Assembly (NCBI GenBank): GCA_902826795.1
Contig: CADEGD010000002.1
Location: 7,552-71,551, forward strand
Direction of reading: 5' to 3'
Source: an uncultured Acidobacteriota bacterium
GTDB taxonomy: Bacteria; Acidobacteriota; Blastocatellia; Pyrinomonadales; Pyrinomonadaceae
Length of the DNA: 64,000 nucleotides
In this document: positions 43,687 through 53,314 of the stretch, piece by piece
Position numbering within the stretch: position 1 is the first letter of the stretch
Layout of the letters: every line of letters starts with the position of its first letter
Made by a program: the position numbers and the translations under genes
Notes under the pieces: generated by a model
What the model saw: only the letters and a program-made list of their open reading frames with translations
The model's database searches: none
Told to the model about the DNA's origin: nothing

Positions 43687-46191
43687 TCAGGCCGAATTTC
43701 GTCCTGCGTTGATGATGCCGAACGAGCAGCGTATCACCAGTTTCTCGTAAAGCTCCCGCTTCTTATCCCCCTCTTCTCTCAGCTTAGTTAACGCAAACTG
43801 CTGGATCGTCACGAGCGGAAGAACGATTCGCTCACGCGTCCGCACCGACCGCTGTTCCACCGGCAGGTCAGACATCAGTTCCGCATTTCCCGTTATCCGC
43901 GAAACAAACTTTAGAGTCCGGTCGAATTCGTCGCGGATCTTTCGCCACATCCGGCCGTAGTCGGGATCGTGTTCGAGATACGCGGTCAGGCTGAAATGAG
44001 TCTTTTGCATCGCCATCTCGCAATTGTCGATCAGCGTCTTAAAGAACGCGTTCTCGCGATACATCTTCGCGACCTTGTCGAGCTCGGGTTCGAGGGCGTG
44101 TAACGCGGAGCCGACACCATAAAATCCGGGCACGTTCTGCTTTATCTGGCTCCATGCACCGACGAACGGAATCGCCCGCAGATCGTTCAATGTCAGTTCG
44201 CCTTGTCCGCGTTTTGCCGGGCGGCTGCCGATGTTCGCTTGTGCGTAAAATCGCATCGGGCTGACTCCGGAGAGGTATTTCAGAAATTCCGGGTCGTCCT
44301 TCAGCTCGCGATATGCATCGAAGCTCGCCTTTGCGAGGCGGTCGGCAAGGTCGAATTCTTCGGCCGTAAAAGTCTCATCTCGCGGCGATAGGATCGGGCT
44401 GTGAAGCCCGGCATTGACGAGTTGCTCGATGTTGTATCTGGCCGCGTCCGTCGTGCCGAAATTTGAACTAACCGTCTGCCCTTGAATCGTCACCTCGATA
44501 GCGTCGTTCGCGATGTTGCCGCCCATTGACGCATAGAAGCGATGCGTCCGACCGCCGCCGCGAGCGGGCGGACCGCCGCGGCCGTCAAAGAAGACGACAC
44601 TTATGCCGAACTCATTCGCGAGCTTCGTTAGGCGGTCTTTGGCAGTGTAGATGCTCCAGTTCGCCATCAGATATCCGCCGTCTTTCGTCCCGTCGCTAAA
44701 GCCAAGCATGATCGTTTGACGGTCGCCACGGCGGCTAAGATGGGCACGATATTCAGGCATTGAATAGAGCTGTCGCATCGTGTTTTCGGCATGTTCGAGA
44801 TCGTCGATAGTCTCGAATAGCGGCACGATGTCGACGTCGATCCGTTCCCTTTCCCAGCCGGCGAGTGCGAATAGGCCGAGCACCTCGATCACGTTTACGG
44901 CTCCACGACATTGGCTGATGATGTACCGCTCGCAGCCGCGCGGGCCGTTCTCCGACTGAATAGAAGCGACGGATCTCACCGTCGCGATCGTGTCGGCCGC
45001 GATGTCGTCCGGCAGGGGAATGGTTAGCTTCGCGGCCCGAAGCAGCGAATCGATCTTTTGCTCGTCGGACATCGACTCATATCCGTCGATCAGTTCCGAG
45101 AGGATAGCCGTGTGAACGGCCGCTTCCTGGCGGATGTCGAGCGAGGCGAAATGAAGGCCGAAACATCTCACGCGGCCGAGCAGCGAATCGACCATCTCGA
45201 CAAAAAGTCCTTCATGTTCGTCGAGAATGAGTTTGCGTATCGCGAGCAGACGCTGCTCTATATCGAGAGCTGATAATTGCGCACCTTCGCCGACGAACGC
45301 CTCCCGATAAAGAATCGTTTCAAGCTCTGCGACCGCATTCTCGACGCCGGTAAATGTCAGTCTTCGCTTCAGTCTGCGGAGGTCGCGGTGATAGCAACGA
45401 AGTATCGCCTTTCGAAGTAATCGGCCAACCTGAAGTGTCGTCTCGTTCGTGACGAACGGATTGCCGTCGCGGTCTCCACCGGACCAGAAACCGATCCGTA
45501 TAAGATCGCTAAGGTCGAGTTCGAGATCTTTAGCGAGCGGCCGAAGCTGATCTTGGATGGCTCCGACGGCGGGGTAGAAAACGTTTTCGAGATACCATAT
45601 CTGGCTCGCGGCCTCGTCAACGGGAGTCGGTTTTGTTTTCTTGAAGAATGGTGTCCGGCCTAATTGCTGCAGCAGAAGATTGATCGCGGCGATATCGCCT
45701 GCGTTGATCGCAGGTTCGAGATCGTTGATGATACCGAGCACCGTGCCGGGATAAAATTGCGTCGGGTGTGCGGTCAGTACGAGGCGTATTGAGAATTTTG
45801 CAAGCCGCTCTTTTAGCTGATCGAACGCGTCGGCCTGTTCGACGGAAGCGAGCAGATGGCTGATCGTCCCCTTGCCGTCCATGTCGTGAAGGTCGCGAAA
45901 AGCAGCGTCTTCTAGAGCGTCGAAAAGCACGACCTGCCGCTCAGCATATTGCACGAATCGAAATAGAAGGTCGGTCTCGCCGTATTGAGCAAGGAATTCT
46001 TCGACGATCTCGATCGGGCTTTTGCCTTTCAATAAACCTTCATCGCAGGCCTCGCCAAAGAGCGACAGGAGGATGCCCGTTCGATCGACGCCGTAGAATG
46101 GCAGCGAGAGAAAAAGGCTGTTGTAAAGCTGAAACTTAATGCCTACGAGCTCTTGAAATTTATCTCCCGAGATAGTCCGGTTGCCGGTCAT
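43687..46191 (-). CDS. ppc: Phosphoenolpyruvate carboxylase
   Basis: 834 residues. It fixes bicarbonate on PEP to give oxaloacetate, the source of aspartate-family carbon used by asnB, thrC and ilvA. Catalytic His in LTAHPTQ, GWSGGDRDGNPFVT-like motif GFWSGGDRDGNPF, GFSDGTKDGGYL, and FFDGRGGPPARGGG, the hallmark loops. It is somewhat short of the E. coli enzyme (about 880). Convergent with tatA. Confidence 0.93.
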   Translation of the reverse strand: MTGNRTISGDKFQELVGIKFQLYNSLFLSLPFYGVDRTGILLSLFGEACDEGLLKGKSPIEIVEEFLAQYGETDLLFRFVQYAERQVVLFDALEDAAFRDLHDMDGKGTISHLLASVEQADAFDQLKERLAKFSIRLVLTAHPTQFYPGTVLGIINDLEPAINAGDIAAINLLLQQLGRTPFFKKTKPTPVDEAASQIWYLENVFYPAVGAIQDQLRPLAKDLELDLSDLIRIGFWSGGDRDGNPFVTNETTLQVGRLLRKAILRCYHRDLRRLKRRLTFTGVENAVAELETILYREAFVGEGAQLSALDIEQRLLAIRKLILDEHEGLFVEMVDSLLGRVRCFGLHFASLDIRQEAAVHTAILSELIDGYESMSDEQKIDSLLRAAKLTIPLPDDIAADTIATVRSVASIQSENGPRGCERYIISQCRGAVNVIEVLGLFALAGWERERIDVDIVPLFETIDDLEHAENTMRQLYSMPEYRAHLSRRGDRQTIMLGFSDGTKDGGYLMANWSIYTAKDRLTKLANEFGISVVFFDGRGGPPARGGGRTHRFYASMGGNIANDAIEVTIQGQTVSSNFGTTDAARYNIEQLVNAGLHSPILSPRDETFTAEEFDLADRLAKASFDAYRELKDDPEFLKYLSGVSPMRFYAQANIGSRPAKRGQGELTLNDLRAIPFVGAWSQIKQNVPGFYGVGSALHALEPELDKVAKMYRENAFFKTLIDNCEMAMQKTHFSLTAYLEHDPDYGRMWRKIRDEFDRTLKFVSRITGNAELMSDLPVEQRSVRTRERIVLPLVTIQQFALTKLREEGDKKRELYEKLVIRCSFGIINAGRNSA

Positions 46192-46240
46192 TTATTCGAT
46201 TGTATTACAGCGTCGAATGATGCAGTTTGAAAAATAGTGA

Positions 46241-46268
46241 TTGACAAGGCTTCGGATGCCGTACTAAT
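46241..46268 (+). promoter_or_regulatory. Promoter of the ilv operon
   Basis: TTGACA at 46241-46246 and a TACTAAT -10 region at 46262-46268 (about 16-bp spacer). Expected start about 46275, 25 bases before the leader ATG. A second TTGACA (46492-46497), after the attenuator, might give terminator-independent expression with a poorer -10 (CATAGT). Confidence 0.7.
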
Positions 46269-46299
46269 CTGACACTCGGCTCAACACGAGCTACCCCGA

Positions 46300-46410
46300 A
46301 TGCTGAACCGAAACGAAAACTTGACCGTTAATTCCAACACCCGTCCGACGGCGAGCGTGGATATTCGTGTCGGCATTAGCATTATCGTCATTATTCCGCC
46401 GAGCGGATAG
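46300..46410 (+). CDS. ilvL: ilv operon leader peptide
   Basis: 36-codon frame from ATG 46300 to TAG 46410. Its last third is VDIRVGISIIVIIPPSG, with seven Ile and four Val codons in the last 17 codons, the classic control block of a branched-chain amino acid leader. Ribosome stalling at these codons when Ile/Val-tRNA is scarce would free the antiterminator. The stop codon lies inside the antiterminator arm. Too short for the usual gene callers. Confidence 0.85.
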   Translation: MLNRNENLTVNSNTRPTASVDIRVGISIIVIIPPSG

Positions 46411-46476
46411 GGCTTTTAGAGATCAGACGCAATGCGTCAGAAGCCGCTATCCGATAAGCAGGATAGTGGCTTTTTT
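46404..46476 (+). terminator. Attenuator: antiterminator and terminator
   Basis: Terminator: AGCCGCTATCC (46442-46452), loop of eight, GGATAGTGGCT (46461-46471) with one G-U pair, then six T. Antiterminator: CGGATAGGGCTT (46404-46415) can pair with AAGCCGCTATCCG (46441-46453) leaving one bulged base, which sequesters the 5' arm of the terminator. A short hairpin GACGC-AAT-GCGTC (46426-46438) lies between. The two structures are mutually exclusive, the defining feature of attenuation. Confidence 0.88.
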
Positions 46477-46576
46477 GTTTTCGGGAAAAGGTTGACAGGT
46501 ATAAATAGTTGTCATAGTCTTGAGAAGATCAAAACGTTTGTTAATATAGACTTTCGACGTTCCTCGATCAGAACGA

Positions 46577-48328
46577 ATGGAAACAGCCACCCAAAAAAAT
46601 CCGACGGTCGTCACGATTCCCGTATCGGTTCACGAAACAGAGAAGGTTCGCGGGGCCGAGGTTCTTATTAAAGGGCTGATCGCAAACGGAGTCGACACGA
46701 TATTCGGACTTCCGGGCGGAGCGGTGCTGCACATCTACGACGAGCTTTGGCGATATCGCGAACAGGTGACGCACTACCTCGTCCGGCACGAACAGGGGGC
46801 GGTTCACGCGGCGGAGGGATATGCGAGAGCGACGGGAAAGGTCGGTGTCGCATTGGTGACATCGGGCCCGGGTGCGACGAATGCGGTCACAGGAATTGCG
46901 ACGGCGTACATGGACTCGATCCCGCTGGTCGTCATCACCGGACAAGTTCCGAGCGGGATGATCGGGACGGACGCCTTTCAGGAAGTCGATACGTTCGGCA
47001 TCACGCTACCGGTAGTAAAACACAGCTATCTTGTTCGAAATGTTCACGAACTTGAGGACATCGTTAACGAAGCATTTTATCTGGCAAAGGAAGGTAAGCC
47101 CGGCCCAGTCGTCATAGACATTCCGAAAGACGTAACGGCGCAGTTGACCGAATATCGCGGACCGCAGAACGCAACGCTGGTGTTCGAAGCCGAGCGTCCG
47201 AAGCCTTCTGTAAAGTCGGTAGAGTTGGCGGTTGAAAAGATCCTAGCTGCGCGGAGGCCCGTTTTCTATGTCGGCGGCGGCGTGGTCTCGGCAGACGCGG
47301 CGGACGAACTTGCAAGGGTCGTTGAGATCCTCGACGTACCAGTTACGCCGACGCTGATGGGCCTCGGCGGATTTCCTACTGCTCATCCGCAGTGCCTCGG
47401 AATGCTCGGGATGCACGGGACGTATGCGGCAAATCTAGCGGTTGCGGAGAGCGATCTGCTCGTCGCTGTCGGCGTAAGATTTGACGACCGTGTGACCGGC
47501 AAACTTAACACATTCGCGCCAAACGCCGAGGTCATTCACATCGACATCGACGCGTCAAACATCGGCAAGCTTCGTAAACCGCAGATACCAGTCGTTGCAG
47601 ATGCAAAGGAAGCGTTGGCTGCGTTGGCTGATCGGTTTGCGCAGGAATCGCTCGGCAAAGATCGACTTGCTGATTGGTGGGAACAGATCAACGAATGGCG
47701 GTCGGAAGTGCCGCTGTCGTGCGAATATTCGGAAACCGAGATCAAGCCGCAACAGTTGATCGAAACGCTGCACAAGGTGACGGACGGCGATGCCGTTGTG
47801 GTCACCGATGTCGGCCAACATCAGATGTGGGCTGCGCAGTTTTATCCGTGTAAAAGAAGCCGTCAGTTTCTGACGAGCGGCGGGCTCGGAACGATGGGAT
47901 TCGGACTTCCCGCCGCCATGGGTGCTCAGCTTGCATGCCCGGACACGACAGTCGTGGCTGTAGTCGGCGATGGCGGATTTCAGATGACGAATCAGGAGAT
48001 CATCACCGCGGTCCAGTACAACATTCCGCTCAAGGTCGTGATCATGAACAACGGCTATCTCGGGATGGTGAGGCAGTGGCAGGAGATGTTTTACGACCGT
48101 GCTTATTCAGAAGTCGATCTTTCGGTCTCGCCGGATTTCGTGAAGCTTGCGGAGGCGTACGGAGCAAAAGGGTTAAGGGCGACGACGCCGGAAGAACTGG
48201 AAGATGTGCTTCGCCAGGGGCTGGAATACGACGGCGTTGCGATTATTGACGTCGTCGTTTCGAAAGAGGAAAACGTTTTCCCGATCGTGCCGGCGGGCGG
48301 CGAATCGCGGAACATGATCTTGAAATAA
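46577..48328 (+). CDS. ilvB: Acetolactate synthase large subunit
   Basis: 583 residues, full-length ThDP enzyme. N-terminal GLPGGAVLHIYDEL, catalytic Glu in VRHEQGAVHAAEGYARATG, SGPGATNAVTGIATAYMDSIP, the FAD-binding middle and the C-terminal ThDP motif VVGDGGFQMTNQEI ... NNGYLGMVRQWQEMFYDRAYSE. It condenses pyruvate (or pyruvate plus 2-ketobutyrate), the first common step of Val and Ile synthesis. First structural gene after the attenuator. Confidence 0.96.
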   Translation: METATQKNPTVVTIPVSVHETEKVRGAEVLIKGLIANGVDTIFGLPGGAVLHIYDELWRYREQVTHYLVRHEQGAVHAAEGYARATGKVGVALVTSGPGATNAVTGIATAYMDSIPLVVITGQVPSGMIGTDAFQEVDTFGITLPVVKHSYLVRNVHELEDIVNEAFYLAKEGKPGPVVIDIPKDVTAQLTEYRGPQNATLVFEAERPKPSVKSVELAVEKILAARRPVFYVGGGVVSADAADELARVVEILDVPVTPTLMGLGGFPTAHPQCLGMLGMHGTYAANLAVAESDLLVAVGVRFDDRVTGKLNTFAPNAEVIHIDIDASNIGKLRKPQIPVVADAKEALAALADRFAQESLGKDRLADWWEQINEWRSEVPLSCEYSETEIKPQQLIETLHKVTDGDAVVVTDVGQHQMWAAQFYPCKRSRQFLTSGGLGTMGFGLPAAMGAQLACPDTTVVAVVGDGGFQMTNQEIITAVQYNIPLKVVIMNNGYLGMVRQWQEMFYDRAYSEVDLSVSPDFVKLAEAYGAKGLRATTPEELEDVLRQGLEYDGVAIIDVVVSKEENVFPIVPAGGESRNMILK

Positions 48329-48362
48329 CTGAACGCCTAAAGGCGTCACTCTTACTTTTTTG

Positions 48363-48881
48363 ATGCGTCACACGATCTCAATAATTGTCGCGAACGAAGC
48401 CGGCGAACTCTCGCGGATAGTCGGGCTGTTTTCAGCACGCGGCTATAACATCGAGACGATCTCGGTCGGCAAGACGCTCGACCCGCGATGGTCGAAAGCG
48501 ACCATTGTAACCAGCGGCGACGACACGACGATCGAGCAGATCGTGAAGCAATGCTCGCGGCTCGCACGCGTGAAAGAGGTAAAAGCCGTAACGACGCTGC
48601 CGCATATCGAACGCGAGATGGCTTTGATAGATGTTTCGGTCACGCGCGGAGACGAGCGGCAGGAAGTGATGAGCCTGGTGAATATTTTCCGGGCTAAGGT
48701 CGTGGACATTTCGCATGACAAGATGATCCTGGAAATGTCCGGGACTCAAGACAAGGTCGAGACGTTCATCGATATGCTGAAACCGCTAGCGATCAATGAA
48801 GTGACACGAAGCGGAACCGTCGCCATAACGCGGCTGTCGGCTCTTGAAGGTTCAGAGTACGCGCTTCAGCGTGCTGCTTAG
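48363..48881 (+). CDS. ilvN: Acetolactate synthase small subunit
   Basis: 172 residues. ACT domain HTISIIVANEAGELSRIVGLFSARGYNIETISV, the valine-sensing regulatory fold, then the C-terminal domain. ATG 48363 is preferred to the TTG at 48360. The 34-bp gap after ilvB holds a small hairpin (ACGCC-TAAA-GGCGT) and a T-rich run that could act as a partial terminator or be another short repeat. Confidence 0.94.
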   Translation: MRHTISIIVANEAGELSRIVGLFSARGYNIETISVGKTLDPRWSKATIVTSGDDTTIEQIVKQCSRLARVKEVKAVTTLPHIEREMALIDVSVTRGDERQEVMSLVNIFRAKVVDISHDKMILEMSGTQDKVETFIDMLKPLAINEVTRSGTVAITRLSALEGSEYALQRAA

Positions 48882-48905: not shown

Positions 48906-49940
<1,035 letters not shown>

Positions 49941-49971: not shown

Positions 49972-50346
49972 ATGAAAGTCTACGATCTGAACGAACTGAA
50001 CGGCGACGCCGTAAACGATTCGTATAACCGCCAAGCGGTCTATGGCGAATCGGTCAGCGTCGCACGGCTCGATGTGAAAAAGGGCGAGGTAACGCAAGCT
50101 CACTCGCACGACACGGAAGAGGTCATCTACCTGTTGCAAGGCAGATGGCTTTTTCATTTGCCGGACGGCGACGTGATGCTTACCGACAACCAGATGCTGT
50201 GCATCCCCGCCGGCGACGTTCACTCCTCCGAAGTAATCGAAGACAGCATTGCTGTCGATATTTGCTCCAACATTAGACCCGACTGGCGGTCCGGACAGGA
50301 TCGAATTCTCCACACAAATCCCGAACAGTTTCTCTGGGCTGTTTAG
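49972..50346 (+). CDS. Cupin-domain protein in ilv operon
   Basis: 124 residues, one cupin barrel. Metal-binding motif 1 QAHSHDTEEVIYLLQGRWLFHL (G-x5-H-x-H-x4-E) and motif 2 IPAGDVHSSEV (P-x-G-x2-H). Small cupins bind a divalent metal and act as sensors, isomerases or dioxygenases. Position inside ilvC-ilvA suggests co-transcription, but no established ilv role exists. It might have been brought under this promoter together with the repeat at its start. Confidence 0.8.
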   Translation: MKVYDLNELNGDAVNDSYNRQAVYGESVSVARLDVKKGEVTQAHSHDTEEVIYLLQGRWLFHLPDGDVMLTDNQMLCIPAGDVHSSEVIEDSIAVDICSNIRPDWRSGQDRILHTNPEQFLWAV

Positions 50347-50453: not shown

Positions 50454-51488
50454 ATGTTATCGGTAAGTCGTTACGAAGGAGTGAGTTTCGCACCGGGCGA
50501 AGCTCTGGGTTATCAACCTGCTTTCCATCCGACTTCCAAAATTATTAGCATCAGTGAAATTCGGAGGGCCGCTACGCGGATCGCCCCTTACATTAAACGA
50601 ACGCCGACGCTGATCGACACTTATTTGAGCGAGCGGCTCGGGGCGAACGTTTACCTCAAGCACGAGCTGCTGCAGCGAACGGGAGCGTTCAAAGTTCGCG
50701 GCGCATTCAACAAGATGCTACAGATTTCGGATGAGGAGCGACGACGGGGAGTTGTCGCCGCTAGTGCCGGAAATCATGCCCAGGCGGTGGCGTACGCGGC
50801 ACGGATCCTGGGTTTGAAAGCCGTGATCCTGATGCCCGAAGACACGCCGGACAACTATGTTCAAAAGACGTTGAAGCATGGGGCGGAAGTGCGATTCTTT
50901 CCCTCTCTCGCGTACGCGTTCGATGCGGCTTCTTCATTCGAGAGTGACGGCTATACTTATATTCATCCGTTCGACGACCGCGACGTGATAGCCGGACAAG
51001 GAACGATCGGCCTCGAAATACTCGCAGACGTTCCGGAAGTGACCGACGTTATCGTCAGCATCGGCGGCGGCGGATTGTCGGGCGGCGTTGCGTGTGCGTT
51101 AAGGTCGCTTAAGCCGTCAGTGAATGTATGGGGAGTAGAGACTCGCGGTGCCCACAGTATGGCGGCCGCTCTCGATGCGGGCAGGCCTGTCGAGCTTTCA
51201 GGGGTCACCTCGATAGCAAGCACGCTCGGTGCCGCACGCGTCGGCGAATTGAATTTCGAACTCGCAAAAGAGTATCTTTCGAGTGTTACCGTGGTCGATG
51301 ACAGCGAGGCCGTGAGCGAGATGTTCTGCCTGCTCGACAAGGCGAAGGTTTTAACCGAACCGGCCACGTCTTGTACGCTCGCGGCGGCCGAACGACTGCG
51401 TGAAAAATTCGGGCCGGATAGCCACGTTGTGCTCATCCTTTGCGGCGGCAACATCGGGCTCGACGACCTTTTTTCGTTGAGGACCTAG
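50454..51488 (+). CDS. ilvA: Threonine dehydratase without ACT domain
   Basis: 344 residues. PLP lysine 80 in TGAFKVRGAF, AASAGNHAQAVAYAA, glycine-rich IGGGGLSGG and the late CGGNIG. It deaminates threonine to 2-ketobutyrate for isoleucine. The C-terminal ACT-like regulatory domain of biosynthetic IlvA (about 500 residues) is absent, so isoleucine feedback by that route is not expected. Control probably falls on the attenuator. The first 25 residues are not typical of the family and may derive from the repeat-rich DNA upstream. Confidence 0.9.
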   Translation: MLSVSRYEGVSFAPGEALGYQPAFHPTSKIISISEIRRAATRIAPYIKRTPTLIDTYLSERLGANVYLKHELLQRTGAFKVRGAFNKMLQISDEERRRGVVAASAGNHAQAVAYAARILGLKAVILMPEDTPDNYVQKTLKHGAEVRFFPSLAYAFDAASSFESDGYTYIHPFDDRDVIAGQGTIGLEILADVPEVTDVIVSIGGGGLSGGVACALRSLKPSVNVWGVETRGAHSMAAALDAGRPVELSGVTSIASTLGAARVGELNFELAKEYLSSVTVVDDSEAVSEMFCLLDKAKVLTEPATSCTLAAAERLREKFGPDSHVVLILCGGNIGLDDLFSLRT

Positions 51489-51637: not shown

Positions 51638-53314
51638 ATGCAGGTTAACAGAATAAGCAAAGTCACCACCGAAGGCGTTGAACGCTCGCCAAACCGGGCG
51701 ATGCTGCGTGCGGTCGGGTTCGGGGATGAAGATTTTCAGAAACCAATCATCGGTATAGCTAACGGATATAGCACGATCACGCCGTGTAATCTCAGCCTTG
51801 GCGATCTGGCCAACGCCGCGGTCAAGGAAGGCAAGCGGATCGGGATGATGCCGCAGATTTTCGGCACGATAACGATCAGTGACGGCATCTCGATGGGTAC
51901 GCCGGGAATGAAGTATTCGCTCATCTCGCGTGAGGTGATAGCGGATTCGATCGAAACGGTCTGTCGCGGGCAAGCAATGGACGGCGTCGTGGTGATCGGC
52001 GGCTGCGACAAGAACATGCCGGGTGGAATGATCGCCATCGCACGACTGAACATTCCTGCCATCTACATTTACGGCGGCACGATCAAGGCAGGACATCTCG
52101 ATGGCAAAGACTTAACAGTCGTGAGCGCGTTCGAAGCGGTTGGCGAATATCTTGCCGGCAAGATCGACGATGAACAGTTAAATGCGGTCGAGAAACACGC
52201 GTGTCCCGGAGCGGGATCGTGCGGCGGAATGTACACCGCGAACACGATGTCTTCGGCTATCGAAGCGATGGGAATGGCACTTCCTTATTCGTCGACAATG
52301 GCAGCGGAAGATGCCGAGAAACGCCAGAATGCGATCGAGTCAGTCACCGCGCTCGAAGCCGCCATTCGCAACCAGCTTCTCCCGAGCGAAATCATGACGC
52401 GCGAAGCATTTGAGAATGCGATCGCGGTGATAATGGCAACGGGCGGTTCCACAAACGCCGTGCTGCATCTGATCGCCATCGCGCATTCGATGGGCGTCCC
52501 GCTGACGATAGACGATTTTGAAACGATCCGCCGACGCGTTCCGGTTCTGTGCGACCTCAAGCCGTCCGGCAAGTACGTCGCAACAGACCTGCACAAGGCC
52601 GGCGGAATTCCTTTGGTGATGAAAATGCTGCTGAAGGCGGGCCTGCTTCACGGCGATTGCATGACGATCACCGGCAAGACGGTGGCCGAGAACCTGGCTG
52701 ACGTTCCAAATTCGCCGTCTGCCGATCAGGACGTCGTTCGCCCTTTTGATCGACCATTATATGCCGAGGGCCATCTCGCGATCCTTCGCGGCAATCTTGC
52801 GGAAGAGGGTGCGGTTGCGAAAGTCACAGGCATCAAGAGCCGAAAGATCACCGGGCCAGCAAAGGTGTTCGATTCTGAAGAAGACTGCATGGCGGCGATC
52901 ATGAAAAGGCAGATCAAGGCCGGCGATGTAGTCGTGATCCGATACGAGGGGCCGAAGGGCGGGCCTGGAATGCGCGAGATGCTTGCCCCAACTTCGGCTA
53001 TCATCGGCCTCGGCCTCGGCGATTCCGTCGGCCTGATCACAGACGGTCGATTCTCTGGCGGGACTTATGGAATGGTCGTCGGCCATGTTTCGCCCGAGGC
53101 AGCGGTCGGCGGAAATCTCGCCCTCTTGGAAAACGGCGATATCGTCACGATCGACGCCGATTCGCAAATCTTATGCGTCGATCTTACCGACGAAGAACTT
53201 GCTGCTCGCCGAAATCTCTGGAAGCTTCCCGAGCGGCTAGCTAACGTCAAAGGCGTTGCCGCAAAGTACGCAAAACTTGTCGGCTCAAGCTCGCTTGGAG
53301 CTGTGACAGATTAG
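51638..53314 (+). CDS. ilvD: Dihydroxy-acid dehydratase
   Basis: 558 residues. Iron-sulfur ligands in [13 protein letters not shown] and [16 protein letters not shown], later [14 protein letters not shown] with the catalytic Ser region. It dehydrates the dihydroxy acids of Val and Ile synthesis. All enzymes from threonine to the 2-keto acids are in this operon except the aminotransferase; no leu genes are present. Confidence 0.96.

Follow-up and report, generated by a model that had tools for sequence, protein, structure and literature searches.

A conserved, covarying leader-peptide attenuator predicted upstream of the ilvB operon in Acidobacteriota

In an uncultured member of the Acidobacteriota (genome of 4.15 Mb, 99.6% complete), an intrinsic terminator sits between a short open reading frame (ORF) rich in Ile and Val codons and ilvB, the first gene of an operon. 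The locus lies in a stretch of 64,000 nucleotides, hereafter the window. The class of this genome also contains two-contig genomes of 3.7 Mb that encode the FMO protein (PF02327, E about 1e-86), a pairing characteristic of Chloracidobacterium, which makes Blastocatellia, within Acidobacteriota, the probable class. Downstream of the terminator, the gene order is ilvB-ilvN-ilvC-(small ORF)-ilvA-ilvD, and ilvB-ilvN-ilvC-ilvA-ilvD is a complete operon for Ile and Val synthesis (Table 1). The reading that we favor, with a probability of roughly 0.9, is that a ribosome-dependent transcription attenuator governs this operon. The small ORF in the interval between ilvC and ilvA (49972–50346) looks cupin-like by eye and had no NCBIfam match; small ORFs resembling it come after Leu-rich leaders at three of the loci discussed below (L246, L247, and L279). 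In the genus (41 genomes), searches located IlvB in 12 genomes and IlvD likewise in 12, and they are missing from many genomes that are more than 95% complete, suggesting that branched-chain amino acid synthesis is patchy in this genus through repeated loss or auxotrophy.

Table 1. Features of the ilvB leader and of the downstream operon, in window coordinates.
Feature	Position	Strand	Basis
P1 promoter: −35 TTGACA (46241–46246), 18-nt spacer, −10 TAATCT (46265–46270)	46241–46270	+	Sequence reading; TTGACA-17-TAATCT 5' of the leader in relatives
Leader ORF, 36 codons and TAG, MLNRNENLTVNSNTRPTASVDIRVGISIIVIIPPSG then stop	46300–46410	+	Translation; comparable ORFs at 34 curated loci across the class; start codon putative
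Control codons VDIRVGISIIVII, codons 20–32	46357–46395	+	9 Ile/Val in 13 residues
Antiterminator 5' arm (segment 2) CGGATAGGGCTTTT, includes TAG stop (46408–46410)	46404–46417	+	Fold; covariation
Small hairpin GACGC-AAT-GCGTC between the antiterminator arms	46426–46438	+	Fold only
Shared arm (segment 3), partner segment 2 or 4	46439–46453	+	Fold; covariation with both partners
Terminator 3' arm (segment 4, 46461–46473) and T tract (46471–46476)	46461–46476	+	Terminator scan, folds, covariation
P2 promoter-like site TTGACA-17-TAGTCT, 3' of the terminator	46492–46520	+	Alignment to leader promoters in relatives
TTG TTA ATA TAG, opposite the leader start ATG CTA ATA of relatives	46538–46549	+	Alignment with L082, L090, L108, L114
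ilvB, acetolactate synthase large subunit	46577–48328	+	TIGR00118, 800 bits
ilvN, acetolactate synthase small subunit	48360–48881	+	NF008864
ilvC, ketol-acid reductoisomerase	48924–49940	+	NF004017, TIGR00465
ilvA-type threonine ammonia-lyase	50454–51488	+	TIGR01127, 295 bits, under the equivalog cut-off of 379
ilvD, dihydroxy-acid dehydratase	51638–53314	+	TIGR00110

The layout of an attenuator in front of ilvB is real. An earlier note, made from this sequence, had described a promoter, a 36-codon leader peptide, a control block and six T, all of which are found by direct reading, and had proposed that antiterminator and terminator share one arm and that the leader stop codon lies within the antiterminator. 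Folding agrees on both points, since the shared arm can pair either way, with G46446 bulged when it pairs as antiterminator, and the TAG falls inside the 5' antiterminator arm. The terminator stem (46440–46452/46461–46473) comprises 13 pairs with a ΔG of −21 to −22 kcal/mol and six T, and the 213-nt leader as a whole folds 3.9 standard deviations below shuffled sequences. The small hairpin between the antiterminator arms and the second promoter-like site, P2, are absent from the earlier note. P1 was not flagged in a consensus promoter scan, and no good or strong Shine-Dalgarno sequence was found 5' of 46300; therefore, P1 and the start codon are assigned from their placement and by comparison with relatives, several of which carry TTGACA-17-TAATCT where the leader promoter is expected.

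A control block this dense is rare by chance: of the 87,594 stop-free 13-residue stretches in the six frames of the window, a single one has 9 Ile/Val. Likewise, of the 62 terminator-like hairpins on both strands, one, that of ilvB, has an Ile/Val-rich ORF (at least 6 Ile/Val in 12 residues) ending no more than 60 nt upstream. That number of hairpins also means that equally strong terminators are common here, as would be expected if the ilvB hairpin were a mere operon-boundary terminator whose pairing with the leader is coincidental. However, the upstream neighbor, ppc, runs divergently, so that no upstream transcript needs a terminator, and the antiterminator covaries, as described below. We therefore give this explanation next to no probability, and it is refuted as far as the comparison allows.

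The earlier note had proposed a search for conserved Ile/Val-rich leaders and covarying stems upstream of ilvB in Acidobacteriota, and held that the reading would fail if both the codons and the alternative pairing were lacking in related genomes. Both are kept. IlvB was found in 50 of 162 genomes of the class at E ≤ 1e-170, and the ilvB upstream regions were examined by eye and with a detector. Within the genus, an Ile/Val leader and a terminator precede ilvB in 10 of 11 upstream regions, the window counted, and in these 10 an arm at the leader stop is an alternative pairing partner for the 5' arm of the terminator; at L090, also of the genus, a promoter is present and no terminator is recognizable. 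The curated set comprises 34 attenuator loci across seven families of the class, namely the family of the window, including its other genera (L112–L115, L127–L129), and six further families. Six members with imperfect T tracts (L083, L084, L087, L089, L094, L136), missed by the detector, were added by eye. For example, the leader at L115 is SPVAIIVGISAGVIILFGG and its three arms are GGATGACGGC / GTCGTCATCC / GGATGACGGC, while L082 has the leader IIHTVIIPEG, likewise followed by a stop, with the arms GGATAATG / CATTATCC / GGGTAATGG. In the main type, the antiterminator arm holds a stop codon; in family f6 (L095, L096, L102, L133, L136), the arm (GCTCGCCG) lies in the leader coding region about 20 nt before the stop. 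These observations support the reading of the ilvB leader as a leader-peptide attenuator.

Comparable layouts occur beyond the class in f69 (L143, L144), f29 (L180, L206) and f43 (L189, L190), and most other sampled acidobacterial ilvB genes have no attenuator within 500 nt, several of them sitting behind other genes. The absence first recorded at some f1 loci was revised: in G131, G140 and G100, ilvB lies about 5 kb behind a gltB gene that is itself preceded by a match to the covariance model introduced below. In some genera of the same family, gltB (glutamate synthase) is ahead of ilvB (L116, L117, L119 and L248–L250), with a weak match to this model 5' of gltB. Very short ORFs (MITVILNR, and in L125 a terminal LTVIINR, each with its stop) followed by a long hairpin and terminator were seen at L124 and L125, where pairing of the usual kind was not found. 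Finally, an AT-rich element like AAAAANAATNAATTTTACAA occurs at the −35 upstream of ilvB at L098, L100, L101, L103, L104, L121, L122 and L126, spanning several families, even where no attenuator was seen; it is possibly a regulator site.

Both helices covary. In a swap test on the 34 loci, which is independent of column alignment and uses hand-picked arms, antiterminator arms paired with their own partners at a mean of −16.6 kcal/mol, vs. −10.6 kcal/mol when swapped (Wilcoxon p ~1e-10), and with the test confined to the main type (27 loci), not one of 20,000 permutations attained the observed value. In the window, the antiterminator has −17.7 kcal/mol with its own partner, and each of 33 foreign arms gave a weaker pairing. 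In an arm alignment (A3) of 28 rows and 11 pairs per helix, hand-cut and hand-registered with the pairing in view and containing related, non-independent rows, 85.7% of antiterminator cells and 94.2% of terminator cells are paired, and both-sided changes occur in 7 of the 11 pairs of either helix. Cells with both-sided changes number 32 in the antiterminator and 41 in the terminator, vs. shuffled means of 11.4 and 14.0, and none of 500 shuffles was as high in either case. When the partner was shifted by one to three columns, pairing fell to 20–60%. The parts, their conservation and the covariation of both helices are matters of observation.

Similar cores also precede other operons. A covariance model (R1) was built from 26 ilvB attenuators; with ilv copies as its training set, it detects similar cores only. 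In the genome of the window it recovers the ilvB copy only (E 1.2e-11). At E ≤ 0.01 per genome, 39 of the 158 genomes searched in the class have an R1 match (by rough E-values), as have 44 of 297 in the phylum, where about three would be expected by chance, E-values again being rough. Genes 3' of these matches, some identified by eye, include ilvB, ilvN-ilvB, ilvD, ilvA, cimA, gltB, pheA, thrA, and hom. Among the matches in other acidobacterial genomes (L240–L279), the leaders before thrA are Thr-rich (TTIVITTTTCGVPRG at L255, METMTTTTTTIGVDGRCG at L271, MFTTLRAAFVIIICTAITTTCGGHKRMR at L268), a pheA leader is rich in Phe and Tyr (FFRTFGFYYFYLLDG at L244), and a cimA leader fits its pathway (MAQRTITHIGIAIIIITGVSPGG at L261), each sequence ending at a stop codon; the leaders at L245, L259, and L275 fit their pathways poorly. 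It is an even bet that these loci form one attenuator family spread through Acidobacteriota, in which a single core is conserved, with the arms GGAUGAUGGCC / GGCCAUCAUCC / GGAUGAUGGCC and a stop codon that mostly falls within the antiterminator arm, and only the control codons are exchanged: Ile/Val before ilvB, ilvD, ilvA, and cimA, Thr/Ile before thrA and hom, and Phe/Tyr before pheA. If so, the loci would show how a switch spread within a genome and would offer a ready series for tests of codon specificity.

Two rival readings concern what the leader senses. A riboswitch, a T-box or a protein-bound attenuator, with the ORF incidental, would present the same appearance of terminator and antiterminator, and a ppGpp riboswitch precedes ilvB in some bacteria (PMC10272879). 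However, Rfam models gave no match in 46150–46650 at gathering score, nor any beyond chance at relaxed E-values up to 10, and T-box and riboswitch candidates were rejected on this ground; further, an Ile/Val-rich ORF is present at every curated locus, its stop usually inside the arm, and the leader codons become Thr before thrA and Phe before one pheA. Such an explanation appears extremely improbable. Alternatively, the leader might act as an arrest peptide, the nascent chain sensing a free amino acid and stalling the ribosome, rather than hungry codons doing so, and a stretch 'ISxI(I/V)' does recur in many leaders of the family. The leaders nevertheless diverge widely, with a mean column identity of 29% and one invariant residue, and their composition tracks the pathway, as codon sensing predicts, which makes an arrest peptide highly unlikely.

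For the ribosome-dependent attenuator, we infer that the leader is translated and that folding kinetics, termination and the response to Ile and Val would proceed as follows. RNA polymerase starting at P1 would make the leader RNA, and a ribosome would translate the 36-codon ORF behind it. When charged Ile- and Val-tRNA are ample, the ribosome would reach the TAG, and its leading edge, taken to lie 12 nt past the first base of the A-site codon and thus near 46420, would mask the 5' antiterminator arm; the shared arm would then pair with segment 4, ending the transcript near 46476. When these tRNAs are scarce, the ribosome would stall at codons 26–31 with its edge at 46387–46402, leaving the antiterminator arm free, so that the antiterminator could form first and the polymerase read on into ilvB. 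RNA folding under the assumed edge agrees with this as far as geometry goes: for stalls at I26–I31 the whole antiterminator arm is exposed and the antiterminator forms, for stalls at I32 and P33 it is shortened, and a ribosome that has reached the stop covers the arm, leaving the terminator as the sole possible fold. Folding of the ribosome-free leader counts against the model, since the antiterminator beats the terminator at equilibrium. A 1:2 stem, in which the control codons pair with segment 2 as in the anti-antiterminator of four-segment, trp-like attenuators, would prevent this and is possible at −8.8 kcal/mol; covariation gave no support to the proposal that it is conserved (own vs. swapped p = 0.16; window z +0.3). 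Of the two ways to restore the terminator, masking by a ribosome positioned at the stop therefore has the better support.

The second promoter-like site complicates the locus. Together with the AAAACGTTTGTTAATATAG that comes after it, P2 can be aligned to the leader promoter and leader start of relatives, with scores of 35 for L082 (shuffle maximum 19), 31 for L090, 30 for L128, and 26 for L114, and over 46492–46549 the promoter-like site and the leader-start-like TTGTTAATATAG have counterparts in the leader promoter region in relatives. The segment at 46538–46549 is probably the remnant of a leader start, and the simplest reading of the alignments would make P2 a leader promoter, displaced or duplicated, which has lost its leader and provides basal transcription. 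P2 probably supplies a basal transcript outside the control of the switch; it would bypass the attenuator and weaken its effect. Carried further, the locus could be a decayed relic in which P2 drives ilvB while the P1 leader and its terminator are silent, in keeping with the position of P2 directly 5' of ilvB, its resemblance to the leader promoter of relatives, and the lack of a consensus match at P1. A relic is nonetheless very unlikely, since all pairings are intact, including an antiterminator stronger than with any foreign arm, and L086 shares the order of the window, with a P2-like site 3' of the terminator and an intact attenuator.

Taken together, the attenuator is, as the earlier note said, an instance of the classical leader-peptide attenuation of ilv. 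By sequence comparison, its breadth exceeds that earlier claim, being class-wide, with similar cores at other operons of the phylum. Our literature search, to which subscription journals were mostly closed so that an earlier mention is possible, found no paper describing such leaders in Acidobacteria; within these limits, the ilvB attenuator is classical in kind and new in Acidobacteriota. It provides a covariation-supported leader-peptide attenuator in this phylum, with many natural variants, and so predicts the amino acid that each set of genes answers to in bacteria that are difficult to culture.

The attenuators of enterobacteria (ilvGMEDA, ilvBN, thr, pheA, trp, and his) combine a leader ORF of cognate codons with an antiterminator and a terminator that share one arm. 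The model for them has been described (PMC1183508), and the acidobacterial element resembles them in its cognate-codon leader ORF, its shared arm and its position before an amino acid biosynthesis operon. It differs in phylum and sequence, with no Rfam match, in having the stop codon of the main type within the antiterminator arm, and in a 1:2 stem that covariation does not support. BCAA-rich upstream ORFs also precede ilvB in the ilvB-OMG and ilvB (Leptospira) motifs of other lineages, for which attenuation was proposed (PMC10272879); the window has no Rfam match to compare with these, although ilvB-OMG may not be in the library. In the Corynebacterium ilvBNC attenuator, or ilvB-II motif, a 15-codon leader is combined with a three-hairpin model that includes an anti-antiterminator, and its dependence on translation is experimental (PMC10272879, PMC11857589). 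Our element shares with it a BCAA-rich leader ORF and a terminator and antiterminator before ilvB, whereas its leader has 36 codons, and no sequence match to the actinobacterial motif was found. For actinobacterial ilvB leaders more generally, in which ORFs overlap terminators, no decision was reached on how regulation works, and codon changes in S. coelicolor were without effect (PMC1262725). Those leaders resemble the one described here in their short ORFs with runs of Ile, Val, or Leu and in their terminators before ilvB (PMC1262725); the leader described here has an antiterminator that covaries.
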